Source: Acidobacteriota bacterium (GTDB taxonomy: Bacteria; Acidobacteriota; Vicinamibacteria; Vicinamibacterales; CAVVIG01). From it: 64,000 nucleotides of DNA. Position numbers and translations under genes: made by a program. Location: assembly GCA_003222395.1 (NCBI GenBank), contig QHWB01000052.1, positions 248,001-312,000 on the forward strand. Reading direction: 5' to 3'. The notes under the pieces were generated by a model. That model did no database searches. It was not told the origin of the DNA and saw only the letters and a program-made list of their open reading frames with translations. Positions 1,033-64,000 of the stretch are shown in pieces (the first letter of the stretch is position 1; each line of letters opens with the position of its first letter).

Positions 1033-2253
1033 ATGCAATTGTCCACCGACCTCGAGGCCTGGCGCGCGGAATTTCCGATCCTGTCATCGACCGTCTACAT
1101 GATCAGCAACTCGCTCGGGGCGATGCCGCGCCGGACGGCGGACTCGCTGGCCGAGTACGCGCGCGTCTGGGCGGCGCGCGGCGTGCGCGCATGGGAGGAA
1201 CGGTGGTGGGAGATGGCGCGCGAAGTCGGCGACAAGGTCGCCGCCGTCATCGGTGCGCCGGCCGGCTCCGTCAGCATGCACGAGAACGTGACGACCGCGG
1301 CGATGGTCGCGCTTGGATGCGTGCGGCCGCCTGCCCTGAGCGCGGTCGAGGGGAGCCGGACGCGTAACCGGATCGTCTGTCTCGCCGCCGATTTCCCGTC
1401 TCTTGTCTACTTGTATCGCGCGCAGCAGCCGCTCGGCTTCGACGTCATCGTCGTTCCCGCCGATTCCGACTTCACCGTGCCGCTCGATCGGCTGCTCGGC
1501 GCGATTGACGAACGCACGGCGTTCGTCTCGTTCTCGCACGTGCTGTTCAAGACGTCGTACATCATGGACGCGGCGGCGATCGTGGCGCATGCGCGCGAGC
1601 GCGGCGCGCTCGTGATGCTCGATGGGTACCAGTCGGCGGGAATCATTCCGGTAGACGTCACCGCGCTCGGCGTCGACTTCTTCGTCGGCGGATGCCTCAA
1701 GTGGCTCTGCGGAGGGCCAGGCACGGCATTTCTCTACACGCGGCCCGATCTTCTTCACACCGTCGAGCCGCGATTCACCGGCTGGTTTGCTCATCGCAGC
1801 CCGTTCGCCTTCGACACCGGCGCGATCGACCCGCGCGGCGACGCCATGCGCATGATGAACGGCACGCCGTCGATTCCCGCGTACTACGCCGCGCTGCCCG
1901 GGCTGGAGATCATCGCGGAGGTCGGCGTCGACCGCATCCGCGCCAGATCGAAGCAGATGACCGCGCGCATCTTCGAGCTCGCCGATCGCTACGGCTTCCC
2001 GTCGATCGCCGCGCGCGATCCCGAACGGCTGGCGGGCACCGTCGCCGTCGATCCGCCCGACGCGCTGGCGGTGTCGCGCGCGCTGAAGGGGCGCGATTTC
2101 CTCGTCGACTTCCGGCCCGGCGTCGGCATTCGCCTCTCGCCGCACTTCTACAACACGACGGACGAGATCGACCGGCTGATGGCGGAGATGGCGCGCATCG
2201 TCGAGCACAAGGATTACGCGGCCGGCGCGACGTTGCGATCGCTCGTCACATGA
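1033..2253 (+). CDS. Kynureninase-like PLP enzyme (class V aminotransferase fold)
   Basis: A 406-residue fold-type I PLP enzyme. The PLP lysine is expected at K223 in GGCLKWLCGGPG, and the aspartate in ALVMLDGYQSAG precedes it in the usual place. Kynureninase cleaves L-kynurenine to anthranilate and alanine; the N-terminal NSLGAMPRRT and the GTPSIPAYYA motif fit that family. It overlaps the following amino acid permease by 4 bases (ATGA), so the two are one unit. Odd point: residues 101-107 (ALSAVEG) are the translation of a dispersed palindromic repeat inside the gene. A second, more divergent kynureninase-like gene lies at 10.7 kb, so the two probably differ in substrate or regulation. Confidence 0.82.
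   Translation: MQLSTDLEAWRAEFPILSSTVYMISNSLGAMPRRTADSLAEYARVWAARGVRAWEERWWEMAREVGDKVAAVIGAPAGSVSMHENVTTAAMVALGCVRPPALSAVEGSRTRNRIVCLAADFPSLVYLYRAQQPLGFDVIVVPADSDFTVPLDRLLGAIDERTAFVSFSHVLFKTSYIMDAAAIVAHARERGALVMLDGYQSAGIIPVDVTALGVDFFVGGCLKWLCGGPGTAFLYTRPDLLHTVEPRFTGWFAHRSPFAFDTGAIDPRGDAMRMMNGTPSIPAYYAALPGLEIIAEVGVDRIRARSKQMTARIFELADRYGFPSIAARDPERLAGTVAVDPPDALAVSRALKGRDFLVDFRPGVGIRLSPHFYNTTDEIDRLMAEMARIVEHKDYAAGATLRSLVT
1333..1353 (+). repeat. Intragenic palindromic repeat core, copy 1
   Basis: The 21 bases gccctgagcgcggtcgaggg(g) lie in frame within the kynureninase-like gene. A copy with 3 mismatches occurs at 18151-18171 inside another gene. Sequences of the type CCCTGAGC..GTCGA.GGG are a widespread dispersed repeat in many bacterial genomes. 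Here it adds an ALSAVEG loop without breaking the frame. Confidence 0.6.
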
Positions 2254-3635
2254 CGCGCCCCGCACACGACCACGAGGTCCGCAGCGAACAGGTGCTCGCG
2301 CGGCAGCTCTCGGCGCCGCAGCAGATCATGATGGCGCTCGGCGGTGCGATCGGCACGGGCCTCTTCCTCGCCAGCGGCCTTGCGGTGAACGTCGCCGGCC
2401 CGGCCGTCATCCTTTCCTATGCGATCGTTGCGGTGGTCGCCTTGCTGCTCGGCGCGGCGTTGACCGAGATGGCCGTGGCGCATCCCACGGCCGGCGCGTT
2501 CGGCGTGTACGCCGGCATGTACGTGTCGCCGTTTGCCGGCTACGCGGTGCGCGTCAGCTACTGGCTGATGGAGGTGATCGCCACGGGCGGGCAGCTGGTC
2601 GCCGCGTCGATCTATATGGGCTACTGGCTTCCCGCCGTGCCCGGCGCGCTATGGGTGCTCGTGTTCGCCGTCGCGCTCATCTACGTGAACTCCCGCGAGG
2701 TCGGTGAGCTCGGCGCCGTCGAGTACTGGCTCGTCATGATCAAGGTCGTGGCCATCGTCCTGTTCGTCGCGCTTGGCGTGCTCGTCCTCGCAGGCGTCAC
2801 CGGCGGCCCGGCGATCGGTCTGGCGAACGTGACGAATCAGGGCGGGTTCATGCCGTTCGGCCTCACTGGTGTGTGGCTTGCGTGCTGCTTCGTGATCTAT
2901 TCCTTCATCGGCGTGGAGATCGTCGGCGTCACGTCCGGAGAGGCGTCGGATCCGGCGCGGAGCATTCCTCGCGCGATGCGGCGGATGGTCGCCGGTCTCT
3001 CGCTGATCTACATCGTCACCGCGACGCTGCTCATCGCGCTGACGCCGTGGAACCAGCTCGGAATCGGCGAGAGCCCGTTCGTCAGCGTCCTGCGGCGGAT
3101 GGCCATCCCCGGCGCGGCCGGCGTGATGAATGCCGTCGTGCTGCTGGCCGCGCTTTCGAGCGCGAACGCGAACTTCTATCTGATCGCCCGCACGCTCTTC
3201 TCGCTGGCGCGCGCCGGGTTCGTTCCGCAGCGGCTCGGCGCGGTGAGCGCGCGCGGCGCGCCGGTCGCGGCGCTGCTCGTGTCGAGCGCCGGTCTCGGCG
3301 TCGCGGTGCTCGTGCGCGCATTCTGGCCGCAGTCGGCCTACGTGTGGTTCTTCGGCGCCGCGCTCTTCGGCGCGCTGTTCGTGTGGCTGATGATCTTCGT
3401 GACGCACATCGCGTTCCGCGCCCCGAGCGTGCCGATCGCCTCGTATGTCGGCGCCGCCCTCATCGCCGCGATGCTCGTCTCCACCTGGTGGGTGCCGGAC
3501 CTGCGATCGACGGTCGTGGCCGGCGGGCCGTGGATGCTCCTGCTCGCGATCGGTTACCGCGTGTCGTCGGCAAGACGCCGCGTGGCGGAAAATGTGCAAA
3601 GACGATCTCCGGTTTCGAATAGTACGGGACCGTAA
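2250..3635 (+). CDS. Amino acid permease (APC superfamily)
   Basis: A 461-residue inner-membrane transporter with about 12 hydrophobic segments. The first segment has the family signature MMALGGAIGTGLFLASG. GEASDPARSIPRAMR after the sixth segment is the conserved loop of the amino acid transporter (AAT) group that includes aromatic, proline and GABA permeases. Start at 2250 is fixed by the ATGA overlap with the kynureninase-like gene; longer frames upstream only read through that gene. Its place next to a kynureninase suggests uptake of tryptophan, kynurenine or a related aromatic amino acid, but the substrate cannot be read from the sequence. The C-terminus ends in a short basic tail. Confidence 0.88.
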   Translation: MTRPAHDHEVRSEQVLARQLSAPQQIMMALGGAIGTGLFLASGLAVNVAGPAVILSYAIVAVVALLLGAALTEMAVAHPTAGAFGVYAGMYVSPFAGYAVRVSYWLMEVIATGGQLVAASIYMGYWLPAVPGALWVLVFAVALIYVNSREVGELGAVEYWLVMIKVVAIVLFVALGVLVLAGVTGGPAIGLANVTNQGGFMPFGLTGVWLACCFVIYSFIGVEIVGVTSGEASDPARSIPRAMRRMVAGLSLIYIVTATLLIALTPWNQLGIGESPFVSVLRRMAIPGAAGVMNAVVLLAALSSANANFYLIARTLFSLARAGFVPQRLGAVSARGAPVAALLVSSAGLGVAVLVRAFWPQSAYVWFFGAALFGALFVWLMIFVTHIAFRAPSVPIASYVGAALIAAMLVSTWWVPDLRSTVVAGGPWMLLLAIGYRVSSARRRVAENVQRRSPVSNSTGP

Positions 3636-3662
3636 TAAATCGCCTCGATCGGTCCGGCTCTC

Positions 3663-3839
3663 GTAGCGCAGGCCTTCAGGCCGATGGGTTTCTTCGTTTG
3701 CACTCATCCGCGGCGACTTCAGGGCGGCGAGACTTCGTGCGGGCCACCCTCGCTCGGATCGCTCGCTAAAGCGCTGAGCCACGCGGCAACGGTGCGGATC
3801 ACGGTGCTCGGCTCGGCAGCCTTTCAAGGGCTGCGCTAC
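3663..3839. repeat. Pair of inverted dispersed repeats between convergent genes
   Basis: This 229-base gap between two convergent genes holds gtagcgcaggccttcaggcc at 3663-3682 and gcagcctttcaagggctgcgctac at 3816-3839. The two outer ends (gtagcgca... and ...tgcgctac) are inverted relative to each other. Related copies are at 10672 and 19836-19894. Placement in a convergent gap would suit a terminator-like role, but no U-tract is visible. Confidence 0.5.
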
Positions 3840-3864
3840 GGTCGATTTCGCAGCGCGTTCTCGA

Positions 3865-5388
3865 TCACGTCCGGTCGCGCATCTTCGCCAGCGCGCCGCG
3901 ATCCACTTTGCCCAGGTGCGTACGCGGCATCACGTCGAGGAATACGATGTCGCGCGGCGATTTGTAGTGATCGAGGCGCGACTTCGCGAACGCCTGCAGC
4001 TCTGCGCCGAGCGCCGGCGACGGTGACGCCGCGACGACGAAGGCACAGGCGCTGACGAGGCCGTCACGGCCGGTCGCGCCGACGACGGCGACCTCGCGAA
4101 CCGCGGGGTGCGCGAGCAGGCAGTTCTCCACTTCTCCAGGCGCGAGCCATCGGCCGTGAACCTTCAGCATGTCGTCGGTTCGCCCGCAGTACGTGTACGT
4201 GCCGTCGGCGTTGTATCGCAGCATGTCGCCCGAGACGCACCAGTCCCCGCGAAACACGCGCATCGTGTCGTCCATCTGCTGCCAGTAGCCAATCGCGCGC
4301 GATTCGCCCTTCACCCACAGCGCGCCGACCTCTCCATCGGCCACCTCGTGGCCGTCGGCGTCGCAGAGCTTCACCTCGAAGCCGGGCACGACGCGCCCGA
4401 GCGTGCCCGGCACCACGTCGCCCGGCCGATTCGAGATGAAGATGTGCCACATCTCCGCGGTGCCGAGGCCGTCGAGGAGCTCCACGCCGAAGGCCCGCAT
4501 CCAGCGATCGTGCAGTTCCAGCGGGAGCGGCTCGCCCGCCGAAGTCGCGAGCCGCACGCTCGACAGGTCCGCCGACGCGGCGCCGGCGTGCGCCACCATC
4601 TGCTGAATCATCGTCGGGACGTTGATCAAGATCGTCGGGCGGTGACGCGCGATCTGCGCGAAGAGCGCATCGGCGGTGCAGCGCTCCGGAAAGAGAACCG
4701 ACGACGCGCCGACCGAGAACGGAAAGAACAGGTTCGCGCCGGTCGCGTAGCCGAAGAACAGCTTCGGCACCGAGATCGTCACGTCATCCGGCCGGACGCC
4801 GAGCACGCGCTGTCCGTAGAGCAGCGTCGTGTTCACGTACGAGCGATGCGTCTGGACCACGCCCTTGGGACGACCGGTGGTGCCGCCGCTGAACAACCAG
4901 ATCGCCGCATCGTCGCGATGCGAGTCGAACGGCGCGAGCTCGCCTGGTCGCGACTCGAGGCGCGCCGACAATTCATCGCTCGCGACGGCGTACAGCCGCG
5001 GCGATCGTGGAAGGTCCCGGATCTGAACTTCGAACAGCTGCAGCCGATCGGCCGGCACGAACGCCGCGCTGGCTCTGGTGTATTCGAAGAAGTAGCGCAG
5101 CAGCTCCGGCGTCGTATCGGGGTTCACCATGACGGCCACGCTGCCGGCTCGCAGGATGCCGAACAGCGCCGCGACGAAGTCGACGCCGTCCGGCAGCGCC
5201 ACGATCACGCGTTCTTCCGGCCGGACGTCGTCCGCCGCGAGCACGTGCGCGAACTGCGCCGACCGCCGCTGCACGTCGGCGTACGAGAAGGTGCGCGCGT
5301 CGGTGCGGATGGCGATGCGATCGCCGCGTCCCTCCGCAACACGGGCGTCGAGCAGGTAGCCGGCAAGGTTGAGCCGGGTCGGGATCAC
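3865..5388 (-). CDS. Benzoate/2-aminobenzoate-CoA ligase family protein
   Basis: A 507-residue adenylate-forming enzyme that should activate an aromatic acid with ATP and CoA. SGGTTGRPKGVVQTHRS is the phosphate-binding loop. KLFFGYATGANLFFPFSVGA is typical of benzoate-CoA ligases. YCGRTDDMLKVHGRWLAPGEVE is the hinge region, and the catalytic lysine is in HLGKVDRGAL at the C-terminus. The GTG at 5388 is preferred: the family start NLAGYLLD follows it, and AGGA lies 6 bases upstream; an ATG at 5427 would overlap the divergent gene. Next to kynureninases and the aminobenzoyl-CoA flavoenzyme, anthranilate is the likely substrate, but benzoate or salicylate cannot be excluded. Confidence 0.85.
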   Translation of the reverse strand: MIPTRLNLAGYLLDARVAEGRGDRIAIRTDARTFSYADVQRRSAQFAHVLAADDVRPEERVIVALPDGVDFVAALFGILRAGSVAVMVNPDTTPELLRYFFEYTRASAAFVPADRLQLFEVQIRDLPRSPRLYAVASDELSARLESRPGELAPFDSHRDDAAIWLFSGGTTGRPKGVVQTHRSYVNTTLLYGQRVLGVRPDDVTISVPKLFFGYATGANLFFPFSVGASSVLFPERCTADALFAQIARHRPTILINVPTMIQQMVAHAGAASADLSSVRLATSAGEPLPLELHDRWMRAFGVELLDGLGTAEMWHIFISNRPGDVVPGTLGRVVPGFEVKLCDADGHEVADGEVGALWVKGESRAIGYWQQMDDTMRVFRGDWCVSGDMLRYNADGTYTYCGRTDDMLKVHGRWLAPGEVENCLLAHPAVREVAVVGATGRDGLVSACAFVVAASPSPALGAELQAFAKSRLDHYKSPRDIVFLDVMPRTHLGKVDRGALAKMRDRT

Positions 5389-5415
5389 GAGTCCTAGATT
5401 AAACTCGAACACGAG

Positions 5416-6189
5416 ATGCCAGTTCATTCGCTCGCGTCGCTGACGTCGCCCGCCGTGCGCGAGCTGCCGGCATCGCGGACGATCGCGGTGCTCCCGGCCG
5501 GCGCGATCGAGGCGCATGGGCCGCACCTGCCGCTCGGCACCGACGTGATCATCGCGGAGGCGATGGCGCGCGCCGGCGCCGACCGATTGTCGGCGCGAGG
5601 CCTTCACGTGCTGCTGCTGCCGGCGCTGGCAATCGCGCCGGCGCCGTTCGCGTCCGAGTTCGCGGGGACGCTCGATGCGCCGCCCGAAGCGACCACGATG
5701 ATCGTGAGTGGCGTCGTGCGCAGCCTCGGCGCGCATGGCATTCGTCTCGCGGCCATCGCGAACGCGCATCACGATCCGGCGCATGTGAATGCGCTGCGCC
5801 GCGCCGTCGCCGACATCTCCGCGTGCAGCCGCGACACGTTTCTCGTGTTTCCCGATCTGACGCGGCGGCGCTGGGCCGAACGCCTGACGCCCGAATTCCA
5901 GAGCGGTGCGTGTCACGCCGGCCGGTACGAAGGATCGATCGTCCTGGCCGAGCGTCCCGATCTCGTGCGCACGGATGTGATGGCTGCGCTCGCGCCGAAT
6001 CCGCGCTCGCTCGTCGATGCCATCCATCGGGGCGACACGACATTTGCAGCGGCCGGCGGCCCGGATGCGTACTTCGGATTCCCGGCGGAAGCCACCGCCG
6101 CGGAGGGGCGCGCGATCGTCGAGACGCTCGGCGCGATTCTCGCTGAAGCCGTTGTCGAAGCGATCGGTTCGGCAGGAGCCGTGTCGTGA
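5416..6189 (+). CDS. Creatininase-family amidohydrolase
   Basis: 257 residues with the metal-site motif GAIEAHGPHLPLGTDV (E32, H34 and D43 by count) and the later NAHHDPAHV and CHAGRYEGS motifs, which match the NxHxxN and HAGxxETS positions of creatininase (PF02633), with some changes. The family includes creatininase, the mycofactocin peptidase MftE and the archaeal formamide hydrolase ArfB. It is the first gene of a tight operon with RidA, enoyl-CoA hydratase and the aminobenzoyl-CoA flavoenzyme, and overlaps RidA by 4 bases. Because no kynurenine formamidase is found nearby, a formamide-hydrolase role on N-formylkynurenine is a good guess. Ring or amine hydrolysis later in the pathway is the alternative. 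Confidence 0.82.
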   Translation: MPVHSLASLTSPAVRELPASRTIAVLPAGAIEAHGPHLPLGTDVIIAEAMARAGADRLSARGLHVLLLPALAIAPAPFASEFAGTLDAPPEATTMIVSGVVRSLGAHGIRLAAIANAHHDPAHVNALRRAVADISACSRDTFLVFPDLTRRRWAERLTPEFQSGACHAGRYEGSIVLAERPDLVRTDVMAALAPNPRSLVDAIHRGDTTFAAAGGPDAYFGFPAEATAAEGRAIVETLGAILAEAVVEAIGSAGAVS

Positions 6190-6593
6190 GCGGGACGTTT
6201 GCGATCGTCAATCCTCCTGAGCTCGGCACGCCGCGCGGATTCGCGCACGGCCTCGTCGCGCCTGCCGGTGGCCGGCTGCTCTTCGTCGCCGGACAGACCG
6301 CGGGGGACGCGGCCCTGAAAGCGCCGCGCCCCGTGTTCGCGCAACAGTTCGACGACGCGCTCGCGCGCGTGCTGGCGGTCGTGCGGGCGGCTGGAGGACG
6401 ACCGGAGCAGATCGCGCGGATGACCGTGTACGTGACCGACATCGACGCCTATCGCGAAAGCCGTCCGGCGCTCCGCGATCTATGGCTGCGGCACATGGGA
6501 TCGCACCATCCCGCGATGGCGCTCGTCGCCGTCACCGCGCTCGTCGACGCGCAGGCGATGGTGGAGATCGAAGCGACGGCGGTCCTGGCGTGA
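6186..6593 (+). CDS. RidA family protein (enamine/imine deaminase type)
   Basis: 135 residues of the YjgF/YER057c/UK114 fold, which forms trimers. RidA proteins hydrolyse enamines and imines to ketones and ammonia; some relatives act in specific catabolic routes. Family segments seen are LLFVAGQTAGD, FDDALARVLAVVRAAGG, MTVYVTDIDAYRES, and a C-terminal HPAMALVAVTALVDAQAMVEIEATAVL. The arginine usual in canonical RidA (PxR..V/P) is not obvious, since HPAMALVAV holds the place, so this is probably a subfamily with a different substrate. It starts at a GTG overlapping the stop of the creatininase gene and ends overlapping the enoyl-CoA hydratase start. Confidence 0.85.
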   Translation: MSGTFAIVNPPELGTPRGFAHGLVAPAGGRLLFVAGQTAGDAALKAPRPVFAQQFDDALARVLAVVRAAGGRPEQIARMTVYVTDIDAYRESRPALRDLWLRHMGSHHPAMALVAVTALVDAQAMVEIEATAVLA

Positions 6594-7387
6594 AGACGCC
6601 CACGTCGTTTCTGTACGCGCAAGATGTCGCAACCGGCGTCGCGACGATCACGCTCAACCGTCCCGATCGTCTGAACGCGCTGACCTTCGACGTGTACGAC
6701 GAGCTCGGCACGACCTTTCGCGCTCTGAACATCGAATCCGGCGTGCGCGCGATCGTGATCACCGGCGCCGGCAAGGCGTTCTGTTCGGGCGGCGACGTCC
6801 GCGACATCATCGGCGCGCTCGTCGAGCGCGACGACCGCGGGCTCCTCGAGTTCACGCGGATGACGTGCGACCTCATCCTCGCGATCCGCCGGTGCCGCGT
6901 GCCTGTCGTCGCGGCGCTGAACGGCACGACTGCCGGCGCCGGCGCCGTGATGGCCACCGCGTGTGACGTCCGGATCGCGGCGGCTTCGGCGCGCATCGCG
7001 TTCCTCTTCACGAAAGTCGGTCTCTCGGGCGCCGACATGGGCGCCGCCTGGCTGCTGCCGCGCATCGTGGGCAGGGGCCGCGCCGCCGAGCTGCTGATGA
7101 GCGGCGACTTCATTTCGGCAGAAGAAGCGTTCCGCATCGGCCTCTACAACCGCGTCGTCGCCGACGGCGCGGCGCTCGCCGCGGCCACGACGTTCGCCGA
7201 GCAGCTGGCGCGCGGACCGTCGCTCGCGCTCGAAGTCACGAAGGACGCCATCGATCGCGAGGCGAGCCTCGATTTGTCCTCGGCGCTCGAGGCCGAGGCG
7301 AGGATCCAGGCGTCGCTGATGATGCAGGCCGACTTTCGCGAAGCCTACGCAGCCTTCGTCGCGAAACGCCCGCCGAAATTCGTGTGA
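6590..7387 (+). CDS. Enoyl-CoA hydratase/isomerase family protein
   Basis: A 265-residue crotonase-fold enzyme. [23 protein letters not shown] opens the fold. [17 protein letters not shown] forms the first half of the oxyanion hole, and [22 protein letters not shown] the second. [23 protein letters not shown] carries the usual active-site region. The GTG at 6590 overlaps the RidA stop. In this operon it likely hydrates or isomerises a ring-derived enoyl-CoA after the flavoenzyme has dearomatised 2-aminobenzoyl-CoA, in beta-oxidation-like steps. The C-terminal KRPPKF is typical of this family. The exact CoA ester is not decidable from the sequence. Confidence 0.85.
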
Positions 7388-9672
7388 TGCGGATCGTCTG
7401 CGTCGGCGGCGGCCCCGGCGGTCTGTACTTCGCCGTGCTGATGAAGAAAGCGGATCCCCGACACGAGATCCGCGTCATCGAACGCAATCGCCCCGACGAT
7501 ACGTTCGGATTCGGCGTCGTGTTCTCGGATGCGACGATGGCGGCCGTCGCCGACGCCGACTCGGAGGCCTACCGCGGCATCGCCCGGCACCTCGTACACT
7601 GGGACGACATCGAGGTGCACTATCGCGGCGAGCGCATCACGTCGACCGGCCACGGCTTCAGCGGCATGAGCCGCCACACGCTGTTGCGCGTGCTGCAGGA
7701 ACAGGCGTGCGCGGCGGGCATCGACCTGCTGTTCGAACGCGAGATCACGAGCCTCGCCGAGGTTCGCGACGCCGATCTCGCCGTCGCGGCGGACGGCCTC
7801 AACAGCACCGCGCGCCGCCTGCTCGGCGATCGGATCAGGACGACGATCGATGTGCGGCCGAACCGGTTCGTCTGGCTCGGAACGACGAAGCCGTTCCCCG
7901 CCTTCACGTTCTACTTCAAGAACGACAGTCATGGCCTCTGGCGCGTGCACGCGTACCAGTACGGTCCGGAACAGTCGACGTTCATCGTCGAGTGCGGCGA
8001 GGCGACGTGGAAGGCCGCGGGCATGGACCGCGCGTCGGAGCAGCAGACGGCCGACTTTCTCGAAGGACTGTTCGCCGAGGAGCTCGACGGCCATCAGCTG
8101 ATGACGAACCGCAGCATCTGGCGGCAGTTCCCGACGGTGCGCGTCGAACCATGGTGGAGCGACCAGGTCGTCCTGCTCGGCGACGCGGCGCACACGGCGC
8201 ACTTCTCGGTCGGGTCCGGGACGCGGATGGCGATGGAAGATGCCGTCGCCTTGCGCGATTGCCTCGTGCACGACACGGATGTGCGTTCTGCCCTGCGTGC
8301 GTACGAGGCGCGGCGCCGGCCGCAGGTCGAAAGCCTGCAGCGCGCCGCACAGGCGTCGCTGCAGTGGTTCGAAGACACCGAGCGGTACATGTCGCTGGAC
8401 CCGGTGCAGTTCACCTTCTCGCTGCTGACGCGATCGCTCAGGATCACGCACGAGGATCTGCGCGTCCGCGACCCGGCATTCCTCGCGCGCGTCGACGAAT
8501 CGGTGGCTCGTGATGCGGAGCGGCAGGTCGGACGAAGCGTGGGGGCTGGACGCCGGGGGCTGCCTCCGCCGATGTTCACACCGTTCCGGCTGCGCGATCT
8601 CGTGCTGCCGAACCGCGTCGTCGTTTCACCGATGTGTCAATACGTCGCGGACGATGGAACGATCGGAGATTGGCATCTGGTGCATCTGGGAAGCCGCGCG
8701 ATGGGCGGCGCCGGGCTCGTGATGGCGGAGATGACCGATGTGTCGCGAGAGGCGCGCATCTCGCCGTGGTGCGCCGGGCTGTATCGTCCGGAGCACGCCG
8801 CCGCGTGGAAGCGGATCGTCGAGTTCGTCCATCGCGAAACGCCGGCGGCGATCGGCGTGCAGCTCGGGCACGCGGGACGAAAAGGCGCGACACAGCGGTT
8901 ATGGGAAGGCGACAACGAGCCGCTGGCGGAGGGTGGATGGCCTCTCGTCTCCGCGTCGCCGATTCCGTACTTTGCGGACCGCAGCTCCGTGCCGCGCGAG
9001 ATGACGCGCGCCGACATGAACTGCGCCATCGCCGCCTTCGCCGACGCCGCCGGTCTCGCGCGCGATGCGGGCTTCGATCTGCTCGAAGTCCACATGGCGC
9101 ACGGATATCTGCTCGCGTCGTTCATCTCGCCGCTCACGAACACGCGCGCCGACGAGTACGGCGGCTCGCTCGACAATCGCATGCGGTTCCCGCTCGAAGT
9201 CTTCGACGCGTGCCGCTCGGTGTGGCCCGACGAGAAGCCGATGAGCGTCCGCATCAGCGCGGTCGACTGGATGCCAGGCGGAATGGAGCCGGACGACGCC
9301 GTCGCGGTCGCGCGAATGCTGAAGGCACACGGCTGCGACATCGTCGACGTCTCGGCGGGACAGACGGTACCCGATCAGCGGCCGGTATACGGCCGGCTGT
9401 TCCAGACGCCGTTCGCCGATCGAATCCGCCATCAGGTCGGCATGGCGACGATGGCGGTGGGAAACATCTCTTCCTACATGGACGTGAACACGATCGTCGC
9501 GGCGGGACGCGCCGACCTGTGCGTGCTCGCCCGCGCGCACCTCTTCGATCCGTACTGGACGCGCCATGCCGCATGGATGCTCGGATACCCGCTGCCCTGG
9601 CCGGATCCCTACAAGTCGGTCGAACGCTACAACCCGCGGTTCGAGTTCCGGTTCACGGGGGACAAAACTTGA
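7387..9672 (+). CDS. Fused FAD monooxygenase / old-yellow-enzyme oxidoreductase, 2-aminobenzoyl-CoA monooxygenase/reductase type
   Basis: 761 residues with two flavin domains. Residues 1-390 are a class A FAD monooxygenase: dinucleotide fold VGGGPGGLY at the N-terminus, FSDATM, and the second FAD motif [24 protein letters not shown]. From about residue 396 ([24 protein letters not shown]) an old yellow enzyme-like TIM barrel follows, with [40 protein letters not shown] and a C-terminal [11 protein letters not shown]. This architecture is known for 2-aminobenzoyl-CoA monooxygenase/reductase and bifunctional salicylyl-CoA 5-hydroxylase/oxidoreductase. It hydroxylates and then reduces the ring of anthraniloyl-CoA. 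A GTG at 7384 is an equally possible start, one codon earlier. The neighbours favour the anthraniloyl-CoA substrate. Confidence 0.88.
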
Positions 9673-9846
9673 AATTGCTGATTTCAGATTGCTGATTTCA
9701 GATTGATTTCAGATTGTCGATTGCAGATTGTCGATTTCAGATTGCAAAATCGATTTTCCGGACCAGGCAATCGGCAATCCATCGACAATCAATCAACAGT
9801 CAATCAGCAATCAATCAGCAATCTGCAATCAGAAATCTGAAATCTC
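9673..9846. repeat. AT-rich inverted repeat made of tandem short units
   Basis: The whole gap between the flavoenzyme stop and the dioxygenase start is a low-GC block in an otherwise GC-rich region. The left half repeats units like gatttcagattg(ct) and gattgtcg; the right half (about 9765-9846) holds their reverse complements, such as caatcagcaatc and gaaatctgaaatc. The two halves could fold into one long imperfect hairpin around 9750. The right arm ends on the start codon of the next gene, where no Shine-Dalgarno sequence is seen. A second block of similar build but different unit lies at 32678-32841. Confidence 0.75.
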
Positions 9847-10638
9847 ATGACAGATCCCGCCGTCACCTACAGCAGCTACCTGAAGATTGACGATCTGCTG
9901 TCGCTGCAGCAGCCGCGCTCGGAGGGGCCCGAGCCCGACGAGATGCTGTTCATCGTCATTCACCAGGTGTACGAGCTGTGGTTCAAAGAACTGCTGCACG
10001 AGTTCGATCGCGTCCGGCGGCTGCTCGAAGACGACGAGCCGCATCGGGCGCAGCACACGCTGAAGCGCATCCTCACGATCCTGAAAGTGATGGTCGCGCA
10101 GCTCGACATCCTGGAGACGATGACGCCGCTCGAGTTCTTCAGCTTCCGCCAGCGGCTCGAGGCCGCGAGCGGCTTTCAGTCCGATCAGTTCCGGCAGATC
10201 GAGTTTCTGCTCGGCGAGAAATCAGAACGTGCGATCCGGCGCTTTCCCGAGGGCAGCCGCGCGTCGGTCGCGCTGCGGCGGCGCTATCAGGAGCCGACGC
10301 TCTGGGATGCCTTCCTGCGCTACCTGTCGCGCGAGGGGTACCAAGTACCGGAGGCGCTCCTCACGCGCGACGTCGTCGCACCAGTGGAGGCGTCGGCCGA
10401 CCTGCAGCGGATGCTCGTGGAGATCTATCGCCGCGACACGAAAAACGCGGAGCTGTGCGAGCGGCTCGTCGATCTCGACGAGGGCATCCAGGAGTGGCGC
10501 TACCGGCACGTGAAGATGGTGGAACGAACGATTGGCGCCAAGCCCGGAACCGGCGGCTCGAGCGGCGCAGCGTATCTCCGCGAAACCATCGGTCGTCCTG
10601 CATTCCCGGATCTGTGGGAGATCCGATCGCAGTTGTGA
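9847..10638 (+). CDS. kynA: Tryptophan 2,3-dioxygenase
   Basis: 263 residues, a cytosolic haem enzyme that opens the indole ring of tryptophan to N-formylkynurenine. Signatures are TYSSYLKIDDLLSLQ, EMLFIVIHQVYELWFKELLHE (with the active-site region and aromatic residues), and MTPLEFFSFRQRLEAASGFQS. WRYRHVKMVERTIGAKPGTGGSSG near the C-terminus contains the proximal haem histidine and the GTGGS substrate loop. Length fits bacterial members of about 260-290 residues. The AUG directly follows the long inverted repeat without a clear ribosome site. It feeds kynureninase, 60 bases downstream. Confidence 0.95.
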   Translation: MTDPAVTYSSYLKIDDLLSLQQPRSEGPEPDEMLFIVIHQVYELWFKELLHEFDRVRRLLEDDEPHRAQHTLKRILTILKVMVAQLDILETMTPLEFFSFRQRLEAASGFQSDQFRQIEFLLGEKSERAIRRFPEGSRASVALRRRYQEPTLWDAFLRYLSREGYQVPEALLTRDVVAPVEASADLQRMLVEIYRRDTKNAELCERLVDLDEGIQEWRYRHVKMVERTIGAKPGTGGSSGAAYLRETIGRPAFPDLWEIRSQL

Positions 10639-10698
10639 GCGTGAGCAGATCAAGAGTGCGTTTCAAATCATGTAGCGCAGCCTTTAGTTGGCAACCAC

Positions 10699-11856
10699 AT
10701 GCCATTGGCTGATTACTACTCGCGCTTCCGCGTCGCGGAGCGTCTTCTCCTCACCGGCCACTCGCATCAGGCGTGGCCCGACGTGTCGTTCGACGCGCAG
10801 GAACGAGCGTGGCTCGATGCGGCGGAGATGGTCGACGACAAATGGGAACGCGCGCGGGAGCAGGCGGCGCGGGTGCAGACCGGCTTTCGCCGGCTGCTGG
10901 CCGATCCTGACGGCGACATCGCGCTCGGGCAGAACACGCACGAACTGGTGACGCGTCTGTTGTCCGCGCTCCCGCTCGGCCGGCGGCCCAGGCTGATCAC
11001 GTCGGACGGCGAGTTCCACACGATTCGGCGCCAGCTCGATCGACTTGCGGAGGAAGGGCTCGCGGTCGTGAAGGTCAGCGCGCGGCCCGCCGATACGCTC
11101 GCGGATCGCATGGCGGCCGCCGTCGACGACCGTACGGCGTGCGTGCTCGTGTCGTCAGTGCTGTTCGAGACGGCCGAGATCGTTCCCGACCTCGACGTCG
11201 TGGCGCGCGCGTGCGATCGACATGGCGTGACGCTGCTCGTCGATGCGTACCATCACTTGAACGTGGTGCCGTTCGATATCCGACGGTTGGGCCTGGAGAA
11301 CGCGTTCGTCACCGGCGGCGGCTATAAGTACTGTCAGCTCGGCGAGGGAAATTGTTTTCTGCGCGTGCCGCCAGGCTGCCATCTTCGTCCGGTCCTCACC
11401 GGCTGGTTCAGCGAGTTCGCCGACCTCGAGCAAGGCGGTGCGCGCGATCGCGTCGAGTACGGCGGCGGCGCGGCGCGCTTCGCGGGCGCGACCTACGATC
11501 CGGCGCCGCACTACCGCGGCGCCGCGGTGTTTGCATTTCACGTCGACCAGGAACTGACGGCCGAGCGGCTGCGGGCGATCAACCAGCGGCAGGTCGGGCT
11601 GCTGAAAGGCGCGTTCGAGTCGCTGGACCTCGATCCGTCCGTTGCGCGGGTCGAGCCGATGGCCGGCGATCGGCGTGCAGGATTTCTCGCGCTGCGGTCG
11701 CCGCGAGCGGGCGAGCTGTCGGCCGCGCTGCGCGGCCGCGGTGTGTTGACCGACTTCCGCGGCGACGTGTTGCGCCTTGGACCCGCGCCGTACTTGAGCG
11801 ACGACCAGCTGCGCGAAGCAGTCAAGGCACTTGAATCGGTCAGCGTCGTGCGGTGA
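10699..11856 (+). CDS. Kynureninase-like PLP enzyme, second copy
   Basis: 385 residues of the fold-type I PLP class, clearly different from the kynureninase-like gene at 1.0 kb. TGHSHQAWPDVS at the N-terminus and LLVDAYHHLNVVPFDI before the PLP site fit bacterial kynureninase-like proteins. The lysine is expected at K210 in GGGYKYCQLGEGN. It follows tryptophan 2,3-dioxygenase by 60 bases on the same strand and is the best candidate for the step that yields anthranilate. The gap holds a copy of the gtagcgcagccttt repeat. The last 17 bases overlap the convergent YceI gene. Whether the two enzymes are redundant or act on kynurenine and a modified kynurenine is open. Confidence 0.83.
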   Translation: MPLADYYSRFRVAERLLLTGHSHQAWPDVSFDAQERAWLDAAEMVDDKWERAREQAARVQTGFRRLLADPDGDIALGQNTHELVTRLLSALPLGRRPRLITSDGEFHTIRRQLDRLAEEGLAVVKVSARPADTLADRMAAAVDDRTACVLVSSVLFETAEIVPDLDVVARACDRHGVTLLVDAYHHLNVVPFDIRRLGLENAFVTGGGYKYCQLGEGNCFLRVPPGCHLRPVLTGWFSEFADLEQGGARDRVEYGGGAARFAGATYDPAPHYRGAAVFAFHVDQELTAERLRAINQRQVGLLKGAFESLDLDPSVARVEPMAGDRRAGFLALRSPRAGELSAALRGRGVLTDFRGDVLRLGPAPYLSDDQLREAVKALESVSVVR

Positions 11857-63712: not shown

Positions 63713-64000
63713 CTAGAATACGCCCAGCGCGTTGAACGGCGTGGCGGTGCCGCCGGTAATCTTCGTCAGCTGCACCGTCATGAAGAAATCCCAGCGCTTG
63801 AGGCGCGCCGCTTCCTGAGCCGCATCCTCGAAATACCCGTTGTCGACGAGCGGCATGCCCATGATCGCGATCGACAGCGTATGCACCGGGCGGTTCGACG
63901 CTTCGCCGCTGCCGCCCGCCACGCCGGAGGGCTGGACGTCGTTGACCGCGTCGCTGCCGAGCAGCGAGACGTCGCGCTGCTTCAGCCACGGCATCACGGA
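63713..64000 (-). CDS. Cyclase family protein, C-terminal part (partial)
   Basis: The last 95 residues of a gene that enters from the right edge. VMPWLKQRDVSLLGSDAVNDVQPSG and RPVHTLSIAIMGMPLVDNGYFEDAAQEAARLKRWDFFMTVQLTKITGGTATPFNALGVF fit the larger cyclase (PF04199) proteins of about 330 residues, the fold that includes kynurenine formamidase KynB. Metal-binding histidines of the family lie in the missing part. It ends 6 bases before the DUF3175 start. It is 52 kb from the kynurenine genes, so a link with them is weak. Confidence 0.75.
   Translation of the reverse strand, partial: SVMPWLKQRDVSLLGSDAVNDVQPSGVAGGSGEASNRPVHTLSIAIMGMPLVDNGYFEDAAQEAARLKRWDFFMTVQLTKITGGTATPFNALGVF
63715..63720 (-). 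promoter_or_regulatory. Putative -10 box before the DUF3175 gene
   Basis: TATTCT on the minus strand, 8 bases before the ATG at 63706 and within the last codons of the cyclase gene. Confidence 0.3.

Follow-up and report, generated by a model that had tools for sequence, protein, structure and literature searches.

The question raised by the DNA considered here is which enzyme removes the formyl group from N-formylkynurenine, the product of tryptophan 2,3-dioxygenase (TDO), before kynureninase can act. The window, a stretch of 64,000 nucleotides from an Acidobacteriota bacterium (assembly GCA_003222395.1, contig QHWB01000052.1, positions 248,001 to 312,000), carries TDO and kynureninase-like genes beside an operon for anthraniloyl-CoA breakdown. 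An earlier reading made from the sequence alone (hereafter the sequence-only reading) had found no KynB-type formamidase nearby and suggested the creatininase-family protein encoded first in that operon, which we call Cren. After a comparison of genomes, we consider it probable that Cren is the enzyme that hydrolyses N-formylkynurenine, replacing KynB; we infer both substrate and reaction from gene patterns across genomes. A little less firmly, but still as the reading we favour, we propose that the creatininase-family clade with NxHxDP-like and SGACHAGxYE-like motifs is a candidate distinct bacterial type of N-formylkynurenine formamidase that replaces KynB. In the titles and abstract openings of the open-access PMC literature searched, we found no creatininase-family kynurenine formamidase.

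Distribution of Cren, TDO and KynB

Each search of the window's own phylum covered 347 Acidobacteriota genomes, with thresholds of E<=1e-40 for Cren, E<=1e-20 for TDO and E<=1e-25 for KynB-like proteins; labels beginning with G, C and L denote genomes, contigs and loci. Many of the surveyed genomes are fragmented, and Cren was scored among the top seven first-look candidates per genome in Acidobacteriota and up to 20 in Gemmatimonadota, so that some Cren genes were possibly missed. Cren was found in 25 Acidobacteriota genomes and TDO in 95, with both in 24 (Fisher p=6e-14; this and all other p-values overstate independence, since the surveyed genomes share ancestry). The 130 Gemmatimonadota gave 31 with Cren, 77 with TDO and 30 with both (p=2e-7), with Cren and TDO no more than 12 kb apart in 23 of the 31. 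In the one Gemmatimonadota genome with Cren and no TDO (G505), the cluster is cut by a contig end at the gene for ACMR (L218), the fused monooxygenase-reductase of the operon.

KynB-like hits occur in 122 of the Acidobacteriota genomes and are lacking in 11 of the 25 with Cren. KynB genes within 8 kb of TDO were found in 12 Acidobacteriota genomes, none of them with Cren, and in 18 Gemmatimonadota, one of them with Cren (G466); over both phyla, such a gene is present in 1 of 54 genomes with Cren and TDO versus 29 of 118 TDO genomes lacking Cren (p=7e-5). If KynB genes above the curated cut-off are counted together with the TDO-adjacent ones, they are present in 16 of the 95 Acidobacteriota TDO genomes but absent from all 24 that also have Cren (p=0.0095); of the 55 TDO genomes lacking both Cren and a KynB so defined, 37 have a weak KynB-like gene and 18 have none.

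Because the comparison over all TDO genomes was judged to be confounded by pathway type, it was repeated among genomes carrying both ACMR and TDO. ACMR is present in 61 of the 130 Gemmatimonadota and in 30 of the 31 with Cren. The 54 that carry ACMR as well as TDO divide into 29 with Cren and 13 with a TDO-adjacent KynB, one genome counting in both groups, and 13 with neither; any KynB-like hit at all is found in 4 of the 29 with Cren versus 19 of the 25 without (p=5e-6). The pattern that best separates these genomes, Cren or a TDO-linked KynB, would be expected if one formamidase had replaced the other. The sequence-only reading had called for a survey of whether the creatininase gene is present when kynB is absent; with Cren nested among TDO genomes and nearly exclusive with TDO-adjacent KynB, the outcome is largely in its favour.

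A profile search of named contig records with the Cren alignment returned 281 relatives, of which the best 80 were kept; many of these loci are cut by contig ends, and some of the records are surveyed genomes (L065/G183, L134/G031 and Gemmatirosa L208/G475), so the two sets are not additive. TDO lies in the locus in 30 of the best 80 and elsewhere in the genome in 44 of the other 50, the remaining six being all titled as metagenome-assembled genomes. The clade appears in records titled Acidobacteria, Gemmatimonadetes, Planctomycetota, Eisenbacteria and Myxococcales/Polyangiaceae.

The locus and the proposed pathway

The genes of the window that matter here are the following.

5416-6189, + strand: Cren, creatininase family PF02633, candidate N-formylkynurenine formamidase, at the head of the operon (169.9 bits, cut-off 31.3)
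6186-6593, + strand: RidA family PF01042, presumed to deaminate enamines/imines in the anthraniloyl-CoA branch (family scans)
6590-7387, + strand: ECH, enoyl-CoA hydratase/crotonase family (NF006107, 363 bits, cut-off 330)
7384-9672, + strand: ACMR, fused FAD monooxygenase and old-yellow-enzyme (OYE) reductase (NF006101, 1109 bits, cut-off 1078)
9847-10638, + strand: TDO, tryptophan 2,3-dioxygenase, PF03301 (TIGR03036, 288 bits, under the cut-off of 390.7)
10699-11856, + strand: kynureninase-like pyridoxal-phosphate protein (KYNU_C domain only, by Pfam)
3865-5391, - strand: benzoate-CoA ligase family, divergent from Cren (TIGR02262, 467 bits, cut-off 375)
1033-2253, + strand: second kynureninase-like protein (TIGR01814, 124.7 bits, under the cut-off of 246.4)

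Open reading frames and family scans of the window confirm an operon Cren-RidA-ECH-ACMR at 5416-9672, with adjacent frames overlapping by 4 bases and, as had been read from the sequence, a creatininase-family hydrolase at its start. That extent is correct for the operon and too short for the pathway locus, which runs from ~1033 to 11856. The NCBI model matched by ACMR carries the name salicylyl-CoA 5-hydroxylase; here we presume a 2-aminobenzoyl-CoA monooxygenase/reductase, and for the divergent ligase, whose reading frame may in fact begin a few codons further inside, an anthranilate-CoA ligase.

In the scheme we favour, Cren would be a creatininase-fold hydrolase that depends on a metal and would deformylate the TDO product, N-formyl-L-kynurenine, to kynurenine and formate; kynureninase would then release anthranilate, the ligase would convert it to anthraniloyl-CoA, and ACMR, RidA and ECH, with partners, would degrade the ring. 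Cren in place of KynB would represent a non-orthologous replacement in these bacteria.

The locus holds two kynureninase-like proteins of different type; after the gene for the one at 1033-2253 comes what looks by eye like a permease gene, and these two genes span 1033-3635 on the + strand. A different arrangement is seen in another genome (L202, G084:C1), where a 620-residue frame at 6885-8747 fuses TDO to what by eye is an ACMSD-like amidohydrolase; genes resembling kynurenine 3-monooxygenase and kynureninase come next.

The Cren protein

Residues 8-246 of Cren match the PF02633 profile above its gathering score over the whole domain, the only match in the Pfam scan; the KynB profiles PF04199 and TIGR03035 gave no match at E<=0.001. 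Cren falls under the equivalog cut-off for creatininase (TIGR04448, 65.9 bits vs 235). Its AlphaFold2 model (pLDDT 97.3) finds only creatininase-family structures at the top of the fold search (3no4, the 3a6 series, 1j2t and 3lub, Z 23.5-25.1), the next family following at Z 10.3. Across 64 aligned Cren sequences, E32, H34, D43, H118, H167 and E172 are invariant and D120 is nearly so (E in some). In an alignment to solved creatininase these seven residues fall on E34, H36, D45, H120, H178, E183 and E122, respectively, which we take to be metal ligands and catalytic residues of that enzyme, and a metal-dependent hydrolysis by Cren would fit this correspondence. Trp154 of creatininase corresponds to Pro146 of Cren, and Trp174 lies, it seems, where two residues are deleted in Cren; PDB titles include W154, W174 and E122 mutants of creatininase. 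As far as the alignment goes, then, the catalytic machinery appears to be kept in Cren and the creatinine pocket not.

The sequence-only reading had seen altered second-half motifs in line with a new substrate. The motifs, NAHHDPAHV and CHAGRYEGS, are present as quoted, and a strict SGACHAGxYE-like form of the second occurs in 52 of 76 sequences; the difference does hold at substrate-contact positions, while the aligned metal and catalytic positions are kept, and to this extent the motifs were misread. In a tree of 33 of the 64 Cren with five other proteins, from which two of the genome's own paralogues were left out, Cren and the relative from G466 form one group (support 100/98) with the G466 protein inside it; we claim nothing finer from this tree because its outgroups sit on very long branches.

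Observations that do not fit

Besides the shared ancestry and the possibly missed genes mentioned above, several observations weigh against Cren as the formamidase. Neither Cren nor any KynB-like hit was found in 18 of the 95 Acidobacteriota and 19 of the 77 Gemmatimonadota TDO genomes; given these 37 genomes, other formamidases must exist, and plain absence of KynB was rejected as proof. Six of the 54 Gemmatimonadota with ACMR and TDO are of this kind; ACMR lies near a contig end in two (G448, G479), and the ACMR loci are uncut in the other four (G458, G476, G517, G520). In three genomes (G025, G197, G075), TDO, kynureninase and ligase occur together with RidA, ECH, ACAD and a stand-alone monooxygenase but no Cren, and plasmid clusters of Sagittula (L247) and Thalassospira (L248) hold TDO, kynureninase and the anthraniloyl-CoA module in one operon with neither Cren nor KynB in it; with TDO and without Cren, these five must use another formamidase. 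Among the 61 Gemmatimonadota with ACMR, TDO is present in 29 of 30 with Cren vs 25 of 31 without, which is not significant (p=0.10). One Acidobacteriota genome, G183, has Cren and kynureninase (L059) with no TDO found, the sole case in its phylum. Cren also adjoins the CoA ligase more often (56 of the best 80 loci, within 600 bases) than its locus holds TDO, so that a role nearer to anthranilate is possible. Lastly, G466 has a TDO-adjacent KynB and also a relative of Cren that neighbours ACMR and hydantoinase-like genes, and the window's own genome encodes a full-length KynB-like protein, considered below.

Two of these loci deserve a closer description. L266 (G458:C7, 7257-17800) holds the module with TDO and kynureninase in a genome without Cren or KynB-like hit, and points to yet another formamidase. 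L217 (G466:C22, 5490-13746) is one run of ACMR, the Cren relative, hydantoinase-B-like and -A-like genes (by eye) and a CoA ligase; its ACMR frame opens with a luciferase-like stretch (by eye), its Cren relative reads RGECHAG, not SGACHAG, and its G+C content is 70.2% vs 68.0% in L216. This run could encode a further route for N-acyl-anthranilates or hydantoins, or the contig could be a contaminant. The hydantoinase-like cluster hints that the substrates of the Cren clade may also include other N-formyl or N-acyl anthranilate-like compounds.

Alternative explanations

The alternative that survives best, though we hold it unlikely, is that Cren acts downstream, as a hydrolase opening or trimming the de-aromatised CoA ring; there is a parallel in IolN, a creatininase-family hydrolase of a cyclic diketone. 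Such a role would be expected from an operon so rich in anthraniloyl-CoA genes, in which Cren accompanies RidA, ECH and ACMR. Among the best 80 Cren loci, in addition to the divergent ligase, SDR follows Cren in 59, ACMR is present in 38 and kynureninase in 32. The ACMR fusion was found in 18 of the 347 Acidobacteriota (the window's genome, 16 with near full-length hits and G287 with a split hit), 16 of which have Cren, and the presence of ACMR in 30 of the 31 Gemmatimonadota with Cren is also in line with a downstream role. The nine Acidobacteriota genomes with Cren and no ACMR fusion all have TDO, and in some of them the module is kept as separate enzymes (L169, L178, L185). In L178 (G221:C5, 1805-4350), a stand-alone old-yellow-enzyme-like protein and a ferritin-like protein (by eye), the latter a possible oxygenase subunit, lie by Cren's module, and it is possible that the two substitute for the monooxygenase half of ACMR.

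Against such a role, the module is found without Cren in three settings. First, of the 13 Gemmatimonadota that combine ACMR with a TDO-adjacent KynB, 12 were inspected at the ACMR locus: ten show ECH, ACAD and ligase by ACMR, nine of these ten also RidA, and none of the 12 shows Cren, two of them being cut by contig ends. The thirteenth is G466. Second, six ACMR Gemmatimonadota have neither TDO nor Cren, and the four of these that were inspected show ECH, ACAD, SDR and RidA by ACMR, with a ligase hit in two, a kynureninase-like hit nearby in all four and a weak KynB-like hit in two. In two TDO-less genomes (L270, G422:C29; L271, G502:C70), kynureninase-like and permease genes lie by the module and the KynB-like hits are at 25-26%; these bacteria perhaps take up kynurenine from outside. 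Third, 11 of 95 plasmid records with ACMR were examined, nine of them proteobacterial. All nine have SDR, ECH, ACAD and RidA by ACMR and eight have the ligase, which was not seen in Ensifer (L210); tblastn found no creatininase in the nine clusters, nor did the gene names in the eight that are annotated. The S. meliloti cluster (L252) gave a short, weak TDO match. The remaining two, Gemmatirosa (L208) and Streptomyces (L253), have ACMR and part of the module without Cren, and the best plasmid match of Cren, at 35% identity, bears the annotation MftE. Because the module occurs without it, Cren seems not to be needed for ring breakdown, and a downstream-only role is weakened. In addition, the two Acidobacteriota ACMR-fusion genomes without Cren (G131, G199) are among the three without a TDO hit, and Cren matches the IolN model at 19 bits against a cut-off of 245. 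In G131, where the genome searches found neither TDO nor Cren, the ACMR-SDR-ECH-RidA module follows trpF-, trpB- and trpA-like genes (by eye; L058, G131:C191, 65-10318).

It seems to us very improbable that the formamidase is instead the KynB-like cyclase-family protein at C34:35667-36290 of the same genome, or an unseen alpha/beta hydrolase, with Cren doing something else. PF04199 matches occur at seven places in the genome, none near the operon. The nearest, ~54 kb off, is part of a cyclase-family protein that continues beyond the end of the window (window ~63944-64000, - strand; C64:311944-312438, 61 bits) and is absent from the genome's TIGR03035 matches. The sequence-only reading was right, therefore, that no KynB-type gene lies near; its proposed check of the rest of the genome did turn up the C34 gene, and a flat statement that the genome has no KynB was rejected. 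The C34 protein matches TIGR03035 over its length with 139.5 bits, under the curated cut-off of 223 (the genome's other matches are two fragments of another protein, below 39 bits). It matches solved kynurenine formamidases at 1e-26, and G025, G197 and G075, described above as having TDO without Cren, have only a KynB-like gene of this kind. However, a 'metal-dependent hydrolase' (1r61) is its better PDB match (9e-41), glgC- and eno-like genes (by eye) rather than kyn genes lie downstream of it, none of the best 80 Cren loci contains a gene of its type, and 11 Cren genomes have no such gene. In a tree of 24 KynB-like proteins (G263 and G346 left out; G071 and G466 on long branches), ten TDO-adjacent or high-scoring KynB stand opposite eight proteins from Cren genomes, the C34 protein among them, across one branch (93/81). 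Two same-family genomes without a TDO hit, G229 and G269, carry the C34 protein at 76 and 74% identity. Among 14 named control genomes, sub-cut-off KynB-like hits at 1e-25 occur in Deinobacterium and Methanosarcina and TDO hits in Caulobacter and Deinobacterium; weak KynB-like hits are thus not specific to TDO bearers, as Methanosarcina acetivorans has one and no TDO hit. A kynB elsewhere in a genome that has Cren regardless was what the sequence-only reading had named as telling against it, and the C34 gene does so to a small degree, given its place across the tree branch and its presence in TDO-less relatives; the premise of no kynB needs softening, but the C34 gene is not TDO-linked.

Equally hard to favour is a deformylation of N-formylanthranilate by Cren, after a divergent kynureninase has cleaved N-formylkynurenine first: the frequent anthranilate-type ligase beside Cren, the kynureninase at 10699-11856, of which Pfam matches the C-terminal domain alone, and G466, which keeps KynB beside TDO (L216) and a Cren relative with ACMR and ligase (L217), would suit it, but some Cren clusters have the other kynureninase type, Kyn1, instead (L167-L170; the order in L167 is kynureninase-TDO-Cren).

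Comparison with known systems

We return to Cren as a probable N-formylkynurenine formamidase and compare it with characterized systems. The 2-aminobenzoate operon of Azoarcus evansii reportedly (Schuehle et al. 2001) shares with the window locus a CoA ligase, an ACMR fusion, a RidA-like protein and beta-oxidation-type enzymes; it is not known to contain a creatininase, TDO or kynureninase. The mycofactocin peptidase MftE is the nearest NCBIfam model to Cren (TIGR03964, 94.1 bits, under the cut-off of 172) and has a different gene neighbourhood. Creatininase of Pseudomonas putida (1j2t, 1q3k and the 3a6 series) has the same fold (1j2t, Z 24.5, root mean square deviation 2.6) and the same aligned metal and catalytic positions at 22-24% identity, and differs at the two tryptophan positions described above. 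KynB would perform the same reaction at the same place, after TDO and before kynureninase, and belongs to a different family; TDO-adjacent KynB and Cren are nearly mutually exclusive.

Formamide hydrolysis has precedents in the creatininase family. ArfB of archaea is a riboflavin-pathway formamidase of this family, and BrbF of Sinorhizobium meliloti presumably is a member of PF02633. No dedicated BrbF or ArfB model is among the NCBIfam matches of Cren. If our assignment is true, the missing formamidase step would be filled for many uncultured bacteria whose tryptophan-to-anthraniloyl-CoA route has no KynB linked to TDO, the genes of one defined clade labelled 'creatininase family protein' would gain a function, and the family would count one more formamide hydrolase after BrbF and ArfB. 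BrbF, annotated as creatininase family, has been shown to be a formamidase acting on a riboflavin precursor, and is without sequence similarity to ArfB (PMC9478397); the word 'kynurenine' is absent from the text consulted. As that text describes it, BrbF is a creatininase-annotated formamide hydrolase, just as we propose for Cren; the likeness is one of description.

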